Below, in pieces: positions 34,863-43,497 of a stretch of DNA of 64,000 bases. Source of the DNA: Bacteroidaceae bacterium (lineage in GTDB: Bacteria > Bacteroidota > Bacteroidia > Bacteroidales > Bacteroidaceae); assembly GCA_017619585.1 (NCBI GenBank), contig JAFZSA010000006.1:43658-107657 (forward strand), given 5' to 3'. Position 1 is the stretch's first letter, and each line of letters begins with the position of its first letter. Made by a program: the position numbers and the translations under genes. The notes below the pieces were generated by a model. That model saw nothing but the letters and a program-made list of their open reading frames with translations. It was not told the origin of the DNA and did no database searches.

Positions 34863-34935
34863 GCGGCAATAGCTCAGTTGGTAGAGCACAACCTTGCCAA
34901 GGTTGGGGTCGCGAGTTCGAGTCTCGTTTGCCGCT
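34863..34935 (+). tRNA. tRNA-Gly (GCC)
   Basis: Complete cloverleaf of 73 nt: acceptor GCGGCAA pairs with TTGCCGC, D-loop AGCTCAGTTGGTAGAGC, anticodon loop with GCC, T-arm GGTTCGAGTC-type (GAGTTCGAGTCTC). CCA is not encoded. It is nearly identical to the second Gly gene in the cluster. Confidence 0.96.
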
Positions 34936-34984
34936 CGCAGAACAAAGTTCTGTAGAGCAAAAAAGAGCTCAAGTTTATTTAGCG

Positions 34985-35009
34985 TCGAGTCTCGTTTGCC
35001 GCTCGCAGA
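34985..35009 (+). repeat. Duplicate of the tRNA-Gly 3' end plus flank
   Basis: A 25-nt exact repeat of the T-arm/acceptor end of the preceding tRNA-Gly and 4-5 bases beyond it, about 60 nt downstream of the gene. It cannot fold as a tRNA. Confidence 0.85.
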
Positions 35010-35039
35010 TTTTAATCTGTGGGAATGGATAACACAAAT

Positions 35040-35121
35040 GCCCAAGTGGCGGAATTGGTAGACGCGCACGTTTCAGGTGCGTGTGCCGCAAGGCGTGCAG
35101 GTTCGAGTCCTGTTTTGGGCA
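35040..35121 (+). tRNA. tRNA-Leu (CAG)
   Basis: A class II tRNA of 82 nt with a long variable arm (GTGCCGCAAGGCGTG region). Acceptor GCCCAAG pairs with TTTGGGC (one G-U); anticodon stem CACGT/GCGTG encloses the loop TTCAGGT, giving anticodon CAG. Confidence 0.95.
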
Positions 35122-35142
35122 CAAGTTCTTAGATATCCTCTC

Positions 35143-35223
35143 GGAGAGGTGGCGGAATGGTAGACGCGCTACTTTGAGGTGGTAGTGCCGCGAGGCGTGG
35201 GAGTTCGAGTCTCCTCCTCTTCA
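35143..35223 (+). tRNA. tRNA-Leu (GAG)
   Basis: A class II tRNA of 81 nt. Acceptor GGAGAGG pairs with CCTCTTC; anticodon stem CTACT/GGTAG with loop TTGAGGT gives anticodon GAG; variable arm TGCCGCGAGGCGTG. Confidence 0.95.
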
Positions 35224-35251
35224 CTCATAATGCGGGAAATGTATTAGACAT

Positions 35252-35324
35252 GCGGCAATAGCTCAGTTGGTAGAGCACAACCTTGCCAAGGTTGGGGTCG
35301 CGAGTTCGAGTCTCGTTTGCCGCT
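35252..35324 (+). tRNA. tRNA-Gly (GCC), second copy
   Basis: The same 73-nt sequence as the first tRNA-Gly of the cluster, with anticodon GCC. It is the last tRNA before the cluster terminator. Confidence 0.96.
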
Positions 35325-36279: not shown

Positions 36280-36313
36280 GAAAAAAGCCCCAGCTTCGCA
36301 GCTGAGGCTTTTC
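36280..36313 (-). terminator. Terminator of the DASS transporter gene
   Basis: Stem AAGCCTCAGCT / AGCTGGGGCTT around a 4-nt GCGA loop, followed on the minus strand by TTTTTTC. Confidence 0.88.
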
Positions 36314-36363: not shown

Positions 36364-37872
36364 TTAGCATAAAATGCCGTATTTGCCTATGAAGAACAAC
36401 AGGACGTAGCCTGTGGCCAAACCAATGATACCCATGATGATACCTACGCGCATCATCTGCTTCTGGTCTATAAGACCAGTAGCGTGAGCCAATGCGTTGG
36501 GAGGTGTTGATATAGGCAGAACCATTGCCAATGATGAGCTGAGGGCTACACCTATCAGCAGTGTGCTTACGCCTCCGTAAGGCTCAAGCGTTGCAGCAGT
36601 TGACACACCTGCCAAAGCCAGGATGGGGAAGAGCAGGTTGGCTGTTGCTGTGTGGCTGATGAAGTTAGCCATAGCATAGCACAGCAGGCCGCTTCCTAAG
36701 ATCATCAGCAGGGGAGACCATGAACCGAAAGGTATGGTTGAGATCAGATGCTCTGCCAGGTGTGAATCCTGAAGAGCCAGTCCCAGTGCAAAACCACCGG
36801 CTACCATCCATAGTACAGACCAGTTGATTTCCTCCAGGTCTCTGCGGGTGATAATACCACAGGTACAGAAGACACCTACGGGTAGCATGGCTACAACGTT
36901 AGAGTTGATGCCGGTCTTCTTGTCGAACATCCACAGCAGAACGGTGATGGCGAAGGTGATGTACACTACCACAGAGCGCCAGTCGTTCTTTGTCTCTCCC
37001 TCTATATTCAGTTCAATCTTCTTCTGTGTGAAGGGGAACATGGTCTTTAGAATAAACCATGCAATGAACAGTAAGATAATAACATAAGGGCACATTACCT
37101 TCATCCACTCTCCGAAGCCTACCTGAATGTTCAGACCGTTGGGGTCACCCAGATAAGAGAGTGCTATGGAGTTGGGAGGTGTACCTATGGGAGTGCCTAT
37201 TCCGCCTATGTTTGCTCCGATGGGGATTGCCAGTGCCAGGCCTATCTTGCCTTTTCCGTTGGCAGGCAGAGACTTTAGTACGGGAGTCAGGAAGGTAAGC
37301 ATCATAGCAGCTGTGGCTGTGTTACTCAGGAACATAGAGAACAGACCTGTTACCAGAAGGAATCCCAGCAATACATTCTCTGATTTTGTGCCGAAGGGCT
37401 TCAGCAGCACCTTGGCCAGTTTGACGTCCAGTCCGCTTTTTGTTGCTGCAATGGCTAGGATGAATCCTCCGATGAACAGCATGATGATGGGGTTGGCAAA
37501 GCATGCCATGATAGCTTTGTGTGAGATGACGGTGCCCAGTTCTTCTACAGGCTTGTCTATCAACAGGCATAGTGCGCTGTCAGAGCAGGTGAAGAGCAGA
37601 ATGACTACGATGGCTACAGAGGTTGTCCAGGAGGGAATAGCTTCTGTAATCCACATCATGGTGGCAAAGCAGAAAAGGGCAATTACACGCTGCTCGATAA
37701 TTGTCAGTCCCTCAATGCCGAAGGCTTCTGTAGGGAGTGCCCATATAACAATTCCGATGATGACTGCAAGGAGCAGTTTGGCAGCTTTGCAGATGAGGCA
37801 ATCGTTTCGCAATTCTTTCTTTCGGCGATGATAAGCCTCAACCAGGTTATTACCAGTAAAGATTTTAAACAT
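36364..37872 (-). CDS. DASS/SLC13-family anion (dicarboxylate) symporter
   Basis: A 502-residue polytopic inner-membrane protein of the divalent anion:sodium symporter family, whose members move succinate, fumarate, malate, citrate or sulfate. The two family signatures are present: SNTATAAMMLTFLTPVL and SHTATANLLFPILA (the paired S-N/H-T motifs of the two inverted repeats), together with GTPIGTPPNSIAL and ISTPPNALAHATG. About 11-12 hydrophobic helices are visible. No Shine-Dalgarno is seen. A cobalamin riboswitch lies about 170 nt upstream on the same strand with no other gene between, so expression is probably repressed by B12. Direction of transport and substrate are not certain. Confidence 0.92.
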   Translation of the reverse strand: MFKIFTGNNLVEAYHRRKKELRNDCLICKAAKLLLAVIIGIVIWALPTEAFGIEGLTIIEQRVIALFCFATMMWITEAIPSWTTSVAIVVILLFTCSDSALCLLIDKPVEELGTVISHKAIMACFANPIIMLFIGGFILAIAATKSGLDVKLAKVLLKPFGTKSENVLLGFLLVTGLFSMFLSNTATAAMMLTFLTPVLKSLPANGKGKIGLALAIPIGANIGGIGTPIGTPPNSIALSYLGDPNGLNIQVGFGEWMKVMCPYVIILLFIAWFILKTMFPFTQKKIELNIEGETKNDWRSVVVYITFAITVLLWMFDKKTGINSNVVAMLPVGVFCTCGIITRRDLEEINWSVLWMVAGGFALGLALQDSHLAEHLISTIPFGSWSPLLMILGSGLLCYAMANFISHTATANLLFPILALAGVSTAATLEPYGGVSTLLIGVALSSSLAMVLPISTPPNALAHATGLIDQKQMMRVGIIMGIIGLATGYVLLFFIGKYGILC

Positions 37873-38048
37873 ATATGTTAATTTTTAATACATAATTATA
37901 CACTACACTGAATCTACACTCACTCATGATGTCTCACGGAGGTTAGTTCAGGTGTGTTCTGTGACCGTTGTAGGTTCGCATCCCATGTTAGGGCTGAGTT
38001 AGATTAGCGCAGTGCCCGTAAACCCGCAGGCAGGCGTTTTTCTTGCAA

Positions 38049-38264
38049 GAGGCAGGTCTTCTGACTTTATCCTTATGGCGGTGCTGTCTTCCCAGAGTTT
38101 TCTTGATGTTTCAACCTTGCACCCTGTCAGGGTTTCTGGTTGGCTCCAGTGACACTGTTGACCGTTTTTTCAGAAAGGACTTACAGCATCGGGTAATGTC
38201 GCAGAATTTCACTGCGTTCCCGTCTTAGCTCCTTGTTTCTTGTGATTTAAGGCATAGGAGAACC
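38049..38264 (-). ncRNA. Cobalamin (B12) riboswitch
   Basis: The minus strand shows the conserved elements in the right order: GGTTCTCC at the 5' end; GGGAACGCAGTGAAATTCTG then CGACATTACCCGATGCTGTA (core of the aptamer, matching GGGAA-x-GGTG-x-AA and CCCGC-x-ACTGTAA); GTGTCACTGG (matching GCCACTG); CTGGGAAGAC (matching GGGAAGG); and AAAGTCAGAAGACCTGCC, the B12 box (consensus AGCCAGGAGACCTGCC). It binds adenosyl- or related cobalamins in the family and usually shuts off expression. The next gene on this strand is the DASS transporter. Confidence 0.92.
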
Positions 38265-38275
38265 AATTGCGGGTG

Positions 38276-38283
38276 CAAAATTA
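38276..38283 (-). promoter_or_regulatory. -7 box driving the riboswitch transcript
   Basis: TAATTTTG on the minus strand lies just upstream of the aptamer; the -33 element is not clear. Confidence 0.5.
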
Positions 38284-38336
38284 CAAAAAATTGTGAACAT
38301 AGAAGAATTAAGAGTGAATTATTTGCTACCAGTGTC

Positions 38337-38367
38337 AAAAAAAGAGACCCAACAGATTTTGAGTCCC
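38337..38367 (-). terminator. Terminator of the GxGYxYP gene
   Basis: Minus-strand stem GGGACTC / GGGTCTC (two G-U pairs) with a 10-nt loop, followed by seven T residues. Confidence 0.7.
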
Positions 38368-38404
38368 TTTATTTGCAGCTTTTAGTTTAGTGTTTGAGGA
38401 TTAT

Positions 38405-40669
38405 TTAGTGGGCTCCATAGATCTCTATGTCGCCTATGCGTACAAAGCCGTCGTTACCGCCGTTGGTGACGTTTACTCGTAAATAACGTGCATCAACTGG
38501 CGTGATTTTTATGTCGTTTACGGGTTCTGTGTTAGCCACATGTGTTCCTACCGTTGTCCATGTTTCGCCGTCCAGGCTTGTCTCCACGGTGTAGTTTCGT
38601 GTATTCAGCTCTGCATCCAGGCCGCCTGCTTCTGCATGTCGTACCACGTAACGGCTAATCTTGAAGGTCTCCTTGAAGTCCATCTGTATCCATGCAGTAT
38701 CAGTGGCTGTTTGTGATACCCACATATAGCCATCCGATGGCGTTCCGTTGGCAGCATACTTTGCGTATGTCTTGGTAGGAGAGCATGTAATCTCCATATC
38801 CTGCAGTATGGTGATGTTGAACGGCAGGTGTTTTGATTCGTTGTAGTAGCTGAACCAGTGGTCGGCACGTACGATATTGACATTGCCTGGAGAGAGTTCG
38901 TCCAGCCTGTCCTTCAGGGCTACAAGCTTGTCGGGACCTAGGTTCCATACATCAGCCTGTCCTGTTACGAACATGGGCGCAGCGCCTTTGAAGTTTTTGA
39001 TGTCACGGTTGAAGAAGTCAGTTATACCATCTATGTCTCCGCGATAGCAGGGGTACTGAGGTGCGATGGGCAGCCATCCGGACTGTACGGCGTAGGCCAG
39101 CCTGCCACTCTGCTTCTCATAGTCGTTGATGGTAAGTCCGTAGAGGTATGGGCAGTTGTCGGCAAAGGCTTTGCGTTGAGCCGGGCTGATATTGTCCCAA
39201 ATAGTGATGACTCGCAGCCCTGACTTCTCAATGTAACGTTGGGTTAGCTTGATGTAAGGCGTAAGTTTTGGACCTGAGTTTTGATAGTATGTGCCTTCGC
39301 CACCGCCTAACCCGTTGAATGGCATGGAATAGCCCATGCCGGAAGGTCCGCAGACAAAGCAGTCGTTGGTGGTTGCCTTACGGTAGTAGTAGTTCAGCAT
39401 AGAGGGTGAGATATCTGCCAGGGCAGGGCTGATAGTCCAGTTCAGGGCAATCTTGCCTCTTCCGCTCTGCTCGAAGATTTTTGCCATGGCATGCTGACAG
39501 TACTGTATGTTGTCACCGTCGCTGATATAGACGGCAGCATAGACTTTGTTCTCCAGCTTGGGACGCTTAGGTACGGGAGATATCTTTACAGGCTTGTTGA
39601 CAGCCGTATAGACGGTTGTATTCTCGAAGAAGTCGCCTGGCACGCTTGATAGTCCGTATAGTGTTGCTTCTCCTACGCCTGAGCGTTCTTCGGGGTACCA
39701 TCCCATAATGAAGTCCCTGCCTGGTGTCATTCCCTTGAGGAACTTGTCAAGCACCGCCTTTTCCCCTGCATTTCTTGGGTCCAGCCATACGCAGGCTGAT
39801 CCGCAGGCAGCGCCGATGTCATGCACATAGGGGATGGCGGGACGCTCGCTGATGAGCAGACGATGGTTGCAGCGGCTCCAATAGTTGTTGTATAAGTAAT
39901 TGTAAATGGTCTGTGCTGTGTTCATTGTCAGTCCCGTCAGGTCTTCCATTACGGGGAAGTCCATGCCGTTAGCTACCAGCTTGTCCCTGACTTCGGCCGT
40001 TACGGGCAGCAGGCGGTCCAGTCCGGCTATAGTGACGGCCAGATTGGCGTAGTGGTTACTCAGTTCGTTGCTGTACAGCACCAGACCTTTGATTTCCTCT
40101 TTGAACAGTTTCACCAGCGTATAGGGCGTGGAGGTTGAGACGGCAGTGGTCTTGATGTTGTGTGCCGTGGGCCAAGTTGTTCGTGGTTCCTCGTTGTGGT
40201 TGTAGAGGAGGATGCGCGGACGGGTACGGTTTACAATACCCTGCAGTGTGCAGAACATCACGCGTTCCGCGTCGCTCAGACCGGCGCCACTCATATCCAA
40301 TGCTCTGAGTGTGGGGGCAGGTGCAAGGAAACAGGGCAGCAGCCTGTCTTCTGGCCAGCACAGCTCATCGGCTTCCAAAACATGGTAACCGGTACTGTTC
40401 AGATTGTATGTTGTGTCGGCAAATGTGATGTCTTCCACCTCTTCCATTTCCGTACGGAAGGCAGCACCGTTCACTAGTTTTGTAACCATTGTTGAGGGTT
40501 GTGCAGTCTGTCCGTCTTCGTTCAGGCCCAGAAAGCTTATTTGCTTCAGGTCAGCCACGCGTGTCTTGGTAACTGTCCCGTCCGTCTTCTGGACCTTCAT
40601 GACCATTTCCTGAGCAGAAATGGATAGGGTAGAAAGTAATAGGGTTGCTATGATAAGGTTTCTTTTCAT
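38405..40669 (-). CDS. GxGYxYP-family putative glycoside hydrolase with C-terminal F5/8C (discoidin) domain
   Basis: A 754-residue exported protein. The signal peptide ends ISISAQ and is followed by a short strand module (KTDGTVTKTRVADLKQISFL shortened: TRVADLKQISF) seen in Prevotella secreted proteins. The central region carries the GxGYxYP signature as GPSGMGYSMP around residues 441-450, with YISDGDNIQYCQH upstream; the C-terminal 140 residues look like an F5/8 type C carbohydrate-binding domain (SDGYMWVSQTATDTAWIQMDF, shortened: TAWIQMDFKETFKISRYVVR) ending RIGDIEIYGAH. The family is predicted to act on glycans; substrate unknown. It is a single-gene unit with its own terminator. Confidence 0.85.
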   Translation of the reverse strand: MKRNLIIATLLLSTLSISAQEMVMKVQKTDGTVTKTRVADLKQISFLGLNEDGQTAQPSTMVTKLVNGAAFRTEMEEVEDITFADTTYNLNSTGYHVLEADELCWPEDRLLPCFLAPAPTLRALDMSGAGLSDAERVMFCTLQGIVNRTRPRILLYNHNEEPRTTWPTAHNIKTTAVSTSTPYTLVKLFKEEIKGLVLYSNELSNHYANLAVTIAGLDRLLPVTAEVRDKLVANGMDFPVMEDLTGLTMNTAQTIYNYLYNNYWSRCNHRLLISERPAIPYVHDIGAACGSACVWLDPRNAGEKAVLDKFLKGMTPGRDFIMGWYPEERSGVGEATLYGLSSVPGDFFENTTVYTAVNKPVKISPVPKRPKLENKVYAAVYISDGDNIQYCQHAMAKIFEQSGRGKIALNWTISPALADISPSMLNYYYRKATTNDCFVCGPSGMGYSMPFNGLGGGEGTYYQNSGPKLTPYIKLTQRYIEKSGLRVITIWDNISPAQRKAFADNCPYLYGLTINDYEKQSGRLAYAVQSGWLPIAPQYPCYRGDIDGITDFFNRDIKNFKGAAPMFVTGQADVWNLGPDKLVALKDRLDELSPGNVNIVRADHWFSYYNESKHLPFNITILQDMEITCSPTKTYAKYAANGTPSDGYMWVSQTATDTAWIQMDFKETFKISRYVVRHAEAGGLDAELNTRNYTVETSLDGETWTTVGTHVANTEPVNDIKITPVDARYLRVNVTNGGNDGFVRIGDIEIYGAH

Positions 40670-41943: not shown

Positions 41944-43497
41944 TTATTTCCTCTTATCGTACTTCTCCCACAGCTTCTTCTTTGCTGTCATCTCCTTCTG
42001 ACGGGCGGTACTTTCGCGTGCAGCCTTTTCTGCTGCTGCCTCATCCTCGGGATTGGCGTAGGCATGGCGGTAACCCTGCTGTTGGTTCCATCCGCCACGG
42101 GTAAAGTCGGGGAATGCTACGGCAGCACAGCCGTTGTCCATACTCAGGGAACCCAGTTCAGATAGGGCACACCATTCAGCCAGGTCATAGACATCTATAT
42201 CCAAAGGCAGTCCGTTCTGCAGACAATAAACCAGACGTGCATCCATTGTGTAGTCCATACCTCCATGACCGAACTCACGGCCCAGCTCGCCGAACTTCTT
42301 CAGAATGGGGTGGTAGTACTGCTTCATCAAGGCATCATATTCATTCTTCGGCAGGAAATTGTGTCCTGATATCTTGCCTGCCATCTCAGCCAGTCCCATA
42401 TCGCTGGCCCCCTTCTTGCTGAGATAAATCTTAGGATCAGGGTATTTGGTGCAGTAGCCTTTCATACCCGTCAGCTTGTACATGCGGTCGTAGGGTTGGG
42501 GGCTCATAACGTTGTGCTGAATCTCTATAACCTTACCTTTTTCTGTACGCATGAGCGTGGTGGTGTGGTCGCCATTGCGGAAGTCGTCGCATTCCTTGCC
42601 CGTCACCTCCTTGTATCCTTCACGTCCGCAGAAACTCTCTGTGTCCATGGCAATGAGGGTCTTTATGCGGTCGCCGCGATGGATGTTCATAACCTGTGCA
42701 ACAGGGCCCAGTCCGTGAGTGGAATAGATATCGCCACGGTTTTCCTTGTTGTATTTCAGACGCCAATGGATGTTTTCAGGGTCTGAACCGTCAGGATTAT
42801 GCCAGTATCCCTTCCAAATTTTTGCCTCGTTCAATGTATGGATGTAGGCACCCTCGGCTCTGATAATCTCGCCAAAGAGGCCATGCTGTGCCATGTTCAG
42901 GGCACACATCTCGTAATAGTCGTAGCAGCAGTTTTCCAGCATCATACAATGCAGACGGTTCTTCTCGCTTAGGTCAATGAGCTGCCAGCACTGTTCCAGG
43001 TTCATAGCACTCGGTACTTCTATGGCTGTATGCTTGCCGTTCTCCAGTGCACACTTGGCTACGGGGAAGTGATGGTCCCAATCCGTAGCCACGTAAATCA
43101 GGTCAATATCATTACGCTTGCACATCTCAACGTACCCTGTACTTCCGCTGTATATCTCAGCAGGGGGCAGACCTGCTTCCCTCAGATATTTTTGGGCATC
43201 CCTGGCACGTGTCTCTTCATAGTCGCAGAGCACTACAATCTGCACGCCTGGTATGTGGCAGTACCTTTTCACTGCCCAAGGGCCACGGCTGCCCAGACCG
43301 GCAAATCCCACTCTTACGGTCTCCAGCTTGGGAGCTGTCAGTCCTAGAGCCGACTGTTGCCCGGCTGGACGGGTAGGGGTGTCAATTACGATGGTTCCTT
43401 TCTCCCAATGCCATTTAGTATTGGGGCTTAAACTCTGAGCATAGATAAATGTGCTTACTGCAAGCAGTGCAATGCTTAAAATGTATCTTGTTTTCAT
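41944..43497 (-). CDS. Gfo/Idh/MocA-family oxidoreductase, GH109-like
   Basis: A 517-residue exported protein: signal peptide (ending STFIYAQ), then an NAD-binding Rossmann fold with GFAGLGSRG at residues 64-72 and a C-terminal alpha/beta domain. Motifs such as ATDWDHHFPVA, IEVPSAM, ENCCYDYYEM and YSTHGLGPVAQV match the GH109 group, in which NAD-dependent enzymes release alpha-N-acetylgalactosamine by an oxidation-elimination mechanism. The C-terminus is charged (KKKLWEKYDKRK). Activity on GalNAc is inferred from the family; other Gfo/Idh/MocA activities remain possible. Confidence 0.86.
   Translation of the reverse strand: MKTRYILSIALLAVSTFIYAQSLSPNTKWHWEKGTIVIDTPTRPAGQQSALGLTAPKLETVRVGFAGLGSRGPWAVKRYCHIPGVQIVVLCDYEETRARDAQKYLREAGLPPAEIYSGSTGYVEMCKRNDIDLIYVATDWDHHFPVAKCALENGKHTAIEVPSAMNLEQCWQLIDLSEKNRLHCMMLENCCYDYYEMCALNMAQHGLFGEIIRAEGAYIHTLNEAKIWKGYWHNPDGSDPENIHWRLKYNKENRGDIYSTHGLGPVAQVMNIHRGDRIKTLIAMDTESFCGREGYKEVTGKECDDFRNGDHTTTLMRTEKGKVIEIQHNVMSPQPYDRMYKLTGMKGYCTKYPDPKIYLSKKGASDMGLAEMAGKISGHNFLPKNEYDALMKQYYHPILKKFGELGREFGHGGMDYTMDARLVYCLQNGLPLDIDVYDLAEWCALSELGSLSMDNGCAAVAFPDFTRGGWNQQQGYRHAYANPEDEAAAEKAARESTARQKEMTAKKKLWEKYDKRK

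Follow-up and report, generated by a model that had tools for sequence, protein, structure and literature searches.

Vitamin B12 and the succinate-propionate branch

Many gut and rumen Bacteroidales produce succinate and propionate, and B12-dependent propionate was reportedly described by Strobel in 1992. In Xylanibacter, B12 decides whether succinate or propionate is released: X. ruminicola KHP1 formed no propionate unless cobalamin was supplied, and succinate then tended to be lower (P 0.07) (PMC11575231). That study places the four riboswitches of KHP1 away from the pathway genes and attributes the choice between succinate and propionate to post-translational control (PMC11575231).

Here we describe a locus in which a cobalamin riboswitch stands directly before a gene for an anion transporter of the DASS (SLC13) family. 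It lies in a window, by which we mean the whole stretch of DNA analyzed, of 64,000 nt from a Bacteroidaceae bacterium. The riboswitch, the transporter family, their adjacency and the recurrence of the pair in relatives were established by computation, and a riboswitch before a succinate-type transporter in several gut and rumen Bacteroidales lineages suggests that succinate traffic is tied to B12 supply. Aptamer and protein belong to RF00174 and DASS, respectively; their pairing, its recurrence and its tie to genomes bearing methylmalonyl-CoA mutase were not found in print in the open-access literature, as searched outside supplements such as those of PMC11575231 with its riboswitch tables. 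If a B12 riboswitch recurrently governs a dicarboxylate transporter, B12 supply would be linked directly to succinate traffic at the genetic level, and the regulon of cobalamin riboswitches would come to include the handling of a fermentation end product, with the DASS protein of the window as a candidate succinate carrier of these bacteria.

The cobalamin riboswitch and its leader

A first-pass annotation had placed a B12 riboswitch on the minus strand with a DASS/SLC13 transporter as the first gene downstream, at positions 36364-38285, and these coordinates are correct. The Infernal/Rfam search that it proposed bears out the riboswitch: cmscan of the 64-kb window matched RF00174 at 38282-38034 on the minus strand with 81.6 bits (gathering threshold 31.5, E 1.5e-18), and the match is full-length, covering all 189 model positions (1-189). 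It ends 161 nt before the ATG of the DASS gene, with no gene between aptamer and DASS in the window.

The consensus of the Bacteroidota -7 promoter box is TAnnTTTG, and such a box, TAATTTTG, sits at the 5′ edge of the aptamer (38276-38283, minus strand). TAnnTTTG occurs near the start of the aptamer match (-45 to +15) in 21 of 22 riboswitch-DASS leaders, a set that includes near-copies such as L176 and L177, where its rate in the same loci leads one to expect 0.59 leaders. Its position is at most 3 nt off the aptamer start in 17 leaders and 22-30 nt upstream in four, while the L039 leader has no TAnnTTTG within -45 to +15 of the match start. Given this placement of the box, the RNA is expected to start at the aptamer. 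A scan for sigma-70 promoters returned three sites, compared to 3.9 in shuffled sequence.

Directly behind the aptamer lies a P13-type hairpin (38013-38032, minus strand) with the stem TGCCTG/CGGGCA and the 8-nt loop CGGGTTTA, in which CGGGT can pair with the ACCCG segment of loop L5 (38190-38194, minus strand). This 5-bp match was equalled or exceeded in 11 of 200 shuffles. A hairpin with a 7-8 nt loop directly 3′ of the aptamer, in the place of P13, is present in 21 of the 22 leaders, a count made without a null. The next stretch (37901-38014, minus strand) is predicted by minimum free energy to form a long stem, which would compete for the 3′ arm of the P13-type hairpin, and is a weak candidate for an expression platform; the 251-nt fold does not clearly stand out from shuffles (z -1.40). 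Forcing the P13-type hairpin changed the accessibility of the start codon by at most 0.12, in both directions, across the 18 leaders that yielded both states. Nineteen of the 22 leaders were put in (all except L177, L027 and L079), L043 formed no P13, and in L039 and L174 the hairpin used differed from that of the P13-type hairpin survey. A hairpin scan of the minus strand of the window gave no terminator-like hairpin between aptamer and ATG. In the clade of L175, L176, L178 and L179 the leaders have, in addition to the P13-type hairpin, a second and strong one that is alike in sequence among them and precedes the start of DASS.

The flanks point to a short transcription unit. The upstream GxGYxYP gene runs into a hairpin and T-run at about 38337-38370 (minus strand); this hairpin was found by eye, its 10-nt loop falling outside the rule of the terminator scan. 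The scan itself placed an intrinsic-terminator-like hairpin of 14 pairs, followed by a T-rich tail, after the DASS gene (36282-36313, minus strand), and the next gene beyond it encodes methylglyoxal synthase. Since hairpins close both the upstream gene and the DASS gene, riboswitch and DASS look like a self-contained monocistronic unit. We regard it as very likely that the riboswitch controls the DASS gene. Upstream of this unit on the minus strand are a putative GxGYxYP glycoside hydrolase with an F5/8 type C domain (38405-40669) and a GH109-like oxidoreductase (41944-43497). Four tRNA genes cluster at 34863-35324 on the plus strand, two of them identical in sequence (70.0 bits each).

The DASS transporter

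The gene at 36364-37872 (minus strand) encodes a 502-aa anion transporter of the DASS/SLC13 family, as the first reading had it, an assignment made from profiles, the nearest solved sequence and a structure model. The protein scores 245.2 bits against TIGR00785 dass (cut-off 198.6) and is matched by both PF00939 and PF03600 (CitMHS). VcINDY is the nearest solved sequence (E 4e-35). The AlphaFold2 model has the DASS fold with a mean pLDDT of 82, and its best structural matches are Pho90, NaS1, NaDC3, NaCT and VcINDY. Identity is 28-29% to VcINDY versus 18-19% to LaINDY and the plant DiT exchangers, while structural Z alone does not separate cotransporter from exchanger (34.3 for DiT2.1 versus 34.5-37.1 for VcINDY).

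DASS exchangers conserve an arginine at the Na1 site, absent in cotransporters, and have a histidine at the Na2 site (PMC7553777). In our alignment, the first SNT motif reads SNTAT in the window protein, SNTAR in E. coli CitT and SNSAR in TtdT, so that the exchanger arginine at the Na1 site is missing from the window DASS and the residue that marks an exchanger is not there. For the Na2-site histidine, one column of the alignment has His in CitT, Tyr in TtdT and Thr in the window protein. The window protein has a histidine of its own three columns earlier, inside the second motif, which reads SHT in its clade and SNT or SNS in the other clades (101 DASS rows). A CitT-like exchanger is thus disfavored by the first motif, SNTAT rather than SNTAR. 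By its first motif the window DASS looks cotransporter-like, and because of SNTAT and of the closer identity to VcINDY than to exchangers, Na+-driven uptake is the default reading. The cargo is probably a C4/C5 dicarboxylate.

Recurrence of the pair in relatives

A comparison of the locus among relatives, which the first-pass annotation had suggested, showed that the riboswitch-DASS pair recurs. The relatives were the best 80 loci from a GTDB contig scan, 57-77% identical in the best segment, and their genomes were searched whole with RF00174 (187 matches) and with the DASS protein. Among the matches listed there were 95 close DASS genes (at least 54% identity) in the 80 genomes. RF00174 lies directly upstream on the same strand in 12 of these 95 genes, in 11 genomes, and with one gene between in two more (L027 and L079); the other 81 lack a riboswitch in either position. 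For 95 genes, chance placement would give about 0.02 pairs with the correct strand and a spacing of no more than 500 nt. Running cmscan on the fetched loci confirmed the two indirect pairs and 11 direct ones, the twelfth direct pair (G038:C16) being based on whole-genome coordinates. A second sample, 151 genomes of the family of G038, yielded 48 further genomes with a strong DASS match, seven of which have a direct pair, including G126 at 82% identity. In total, 18 genomes have a direct pair, their aptamers scoring 69-103 bits, and two genomes with an intervening gene bring the riboswitch-DASS genomes to 20.

Several candidates were dropped. At L025 and L059 cmscan gave no match, nor did it at L012, where the RF00174 match lay on a different contig from the DASS gene. 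Same-strand riboswitches far upstream of DASS were excluded, at 3.3 kb in G049 and at about 2 kb in G223, as was the riboswitch divergent from DASS in G226. Pairs may have been missed in these genomes of unstated completeness, since stricter filters applied in part of the 80-genome and in the 48-genome RF00174 searches and several loci had less than 1 kb of upstream sequence. A survey of genes behind other riboswitches took 60 loci (L081-L140). Thirteen of them lacked an anchor and 11 an ORF that satisfied the rule, L099, the known pair of G006, among the latter. The 36 usable loci included six DASS genes and 17 genes in one cluster, a sample of loci from which no rate is drawn. G089 and G117 have 12 and 10 cobalamin riboswitch matches, and the other 46 of the 48 genomes 1-5.

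On a tree of DASS proteins built by a quick method, with 34 of 98 inner branches open, the riboswitch trait takes eight changes, at least seven of them forced by starred branches, and was therefore gained or lost repeatedly. The tree and the motif counts rest on 101 rows, L051 having been left out because it gave no DASS ORF. The 22 riboswitch rows, which include the window and the two indirect loci, are more clustered on this tree than in any of 500 shuffles. G038 has two DASS genes, each with its own riboswitch, and G001 has one with and one without. No riboswitch precedes the close DASS gene of Prevotella sp. khp7 (L068), taken by its name to be a relative, and the pairing is therefore not universal.

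Neighboring genes and methylmalonyl-CoA mutase

Neighbors were sought within 4.5 kb using a simple longest-ORF caller; one member of each kind was profile-scanned, and cluster sizes are numbers of loci rather than of lineages. The first-pass annotation would have seen its reading refuted by relatives with a B12 gene ahead of the transporter; an intervening gene of this kind occurs in at most 2 of the 20 genomes, with DASS as the next gene in both. It encodes a cobA-like adenosyltransferase in L079 and a B12-independent-methionine-synthase-like protein in L027. Another methionine-synthase-like gene of the B12-independent type follows riboswitch and DASS by 2 nt in L041, and all three score below the NCBIfam cut-off. 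The DASS gene of L028 is followed by a truncated protein that by eye resembles the methionine-synthase-like ones, with no Pfam match in its 83 residues. In L043 a TonB receptor gene lies 19 nt behind the pair, and in L006, L010 and L022 a porin-like gene (Porin_O_P, scanned in L006) follows DASS by 3 nt. Genes for a biotin carboxylase, a BCCP and an mmdA-like carboxyltransferase stand after riboswitch and DASS in five related genomes (L175-L179); the mmdA-like protein of L175, the one scanned, scores 737.7 bits against TIGR01117, below the cut-off of 998.8. In L175 and L179 the carboxylase genes begin 10 nt behind DASS, in L176 and L177 the distance is 391 nt, and a 123-aa ORF intervenes in L178; because of these longer gaps and this ORF, the carboxylase genes of the last three may have a promoter of their own.

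DASS genes that lack a riboswitch have related company. In L184 the divergent neighbors are mutA (TIGR00642, above cut-off) and a partial mutB, and in L191 and L023 mutA is again divergent and a YidE/AspT-type transporter gene comes just before DASS. Proteins of the YidE/AspT type include a succinate exporter. Such a gene lies 33-112 nt before DASS in L191, L023 and L036 (L191 scanned), the pair in L036 belonging to a genome with no mutase match. A KorB-like gene is found within 4.5 kb in ten riboswitch-free loci and a glutamate dehydrogenase gene in ten, the loci being partly close relatives, and 2-oxoacid:ferredoxin oxidoreductase (KorAB) genes are among the DASS neighbors. Because of the mutA/mutB, mmdA-like, KorAB and glutamate dehydrogenase neighbors, C4/C5 dicarboxylates and the succinate-propionate branch are favored. 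A LysR-type regulator gene (L009 scanned) adjoins riboswitch-free DASS in L009, L185, L186, L187, L004 and L017, divergently except in L017.

The mutase itself (PF01642) is present in 20/20 riboswitch-DASS genomes versus 40/60 others with a close DASS (one-sided Fisher 0.0012), a comparison that covers the genomes of relatives, and in which G019 was scored present on the strength of about 31 residues at the edge of a contig. Without G133 and G168, two genomes added because their DASS adjoins mutA, p is 0.0009. The B12 activation domain of MetH (PF02965) was found in 17/20 versus 53/60 (p 0.70), approximate figures as a few matches are weak or short, and since MetH shows no difference, mere B12 use or assembly quality is disfavored as the cause. 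With DASS clusters counted once and G019 taken as absent, the mutase stands at 10/10 versus 14/22 at 80% identity (p 0.03); at 75% it is 7/7 versus 9/14 (p 0.098), at 70% 4/4 versus 5/7 (p 0.38), and at 65% p is 0.67. The association is support, not proof, and weaker once relatives are collapsed. In many of these genomes an open frame of its own, roughly 250-340 aa long, encodes PF02965, which would suit a split MetH; in others the domain belongs to a frame of about 1,200 aa.

Proposed mechanism and alternatives

We propose that the cobalamin riboswitch, transcribed from its own promoter, would control a DASS dicarboxylate transporter gene transcribed on its own. Adenosylcobalamin is the preferred ligand of class-I cobalamin riboswitches, and bound cobalamin, probably this mutase cofactor, would turn the DASS gene off, a direction of control that we regard as likely; the transporter would then be made when B12 is short. 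Its cargo would be succinate or a close C4/C5 dicarboxylate, and DASS would release succinate that cannot be converted to propionate while methylmalonyl-CoA mutase is without its cofactor. Repression and export are held most likely because most cobalamin riboswitches repress and three operons hold genes expected to help under B12 shortage. A B12-repressed dicarboxylate transporter serving the succinate-propionate branch point has, in our judgment, a little under an even chance; given the rest of the chain, net succinate export under B12 shortage is a toss-up, and the whole chain through to export is doubtful. The first-pass annotation had tied the transporter to the B12-dependent branch and proposed succinate export: the tie gains from the recurrence, the promoter box, the mutase in 20/20 genomes and the neighbors, while export loses ground with the cotransporter-like first SNT motif. 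An elaboration that we consider improbable is a B12-gated succinate valve, in which the riboswitch opens DASS when the mutase is not loaded and succinate exits together with Na+, partly restoring the sodium gradient, to which the Na+-pumping methylmalonyl-CoA decarboxylase, now idle, has ceased to contribute. If true, gut B12 would set the succinate:propionate ratio at the gene level.

The shared operons that favor repression can also be read more broadly. DASS may belong to a general B12-shortage regulon, carrying citrate, malate, fumarate or a metal-citrate complex with no special tie to propionate, which we rate as on the unlikely side, yet ahead of the other rivals. The cobA-like, methionine-synthase-like and TonB-receptor genes, each in single loci (L079, L027, L041, L043), would suit it, as would the CitMHS match of the window DASS and a mutase association that loses significance once clusters are collapsed at 75% identity or below. 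The mutase difference, 20/20 versus 40/60 with no difference in MetH, and the mutA/mutB, mmdA-like, KorAB and glutamate dehydrogenase neighbors argue for the branch point instead.

The opposite sign of control would turn export into import: cobalamin would induce a Na+-coupled DASS, and succinate would be taken up from the gut fluid for propionate through the B12-loaded mutase. The first SNT motif is cotransporter-like, the P. faecium DASS is a precedent for a succinate importer by the propionate pathway (PMC7568257), and mmdA-like carboxylase genes lie behind riboswitch and DASS at only 10 nt in L175 and L179. In L176, L177 and L178, however, the carboxylase genes may have their own promoter, and repression better fits the L079, L027 and L041 operons with their cobA-like or methionine-synthase-like gene. 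In B. thetaiotaomicron, B12 represses the genes under B12 riboswitches (PMC8941943), and downregulation is the rule among the cobalamin riboswitches known to date (PMC11575231). We regard import under induction by B12 as quite improbable. Less probable still is the alternative raised in the first-pass annotation, a riboswitch orphaned when a btuB-type gene was lost, and with it the reading that transcription ends before DASS. The long 161-nt leader with its predicted structure would allow it, but the minus strand of the window lists no terminator-like hairpin ahead of the ATG, and direct pairs with well-scoring aptamers recur in 18 genomes across the DASS tree; the orphan reading was rejected on this recurrence.

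Comparison with known systems

The B. thetaiotaomicron btuB, btuG and btuH cobamide transport loci likewise have a cobalamin-responsive leader, through which B12 represses the genes behind (PMC8941943), whereas here the riboswitch precedes the gene of a DASS anion transporter, a protein not known to take part in B12 uptake. Closer in logic is the cobalamin riboswitch before metE, again a gene useful when B12 is short and serving neither B12 uptake nor synthesis (PMC2211319), and methionine-synthase-like genes share an operon with DASS in L027 and L041. MetE, however, is a B12-independent isozyme, while DASS is a transporter, and the bypass would dispose of the blocked intermediate. Among the transporters, VcINDY (a Na+/dicarboxylate cotransporter) and the exchangers CitT, TtdT and LaINDY share the family, the fold and the SNT motifs, but the clade of the window protein has SHT in the second motif and is without the exchanger arginine. 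In Phascolarctobacterium faecium, as here, DASS is linked to succinate-to-propionate conversion, with one gene beside a succinate-pathway cluster; there, in passages that make no mention of a riboswitch, and unlike in the mechanism we favor, the DASS genes are read as succinate importers in a predicted B12 maker (PMC7568257).
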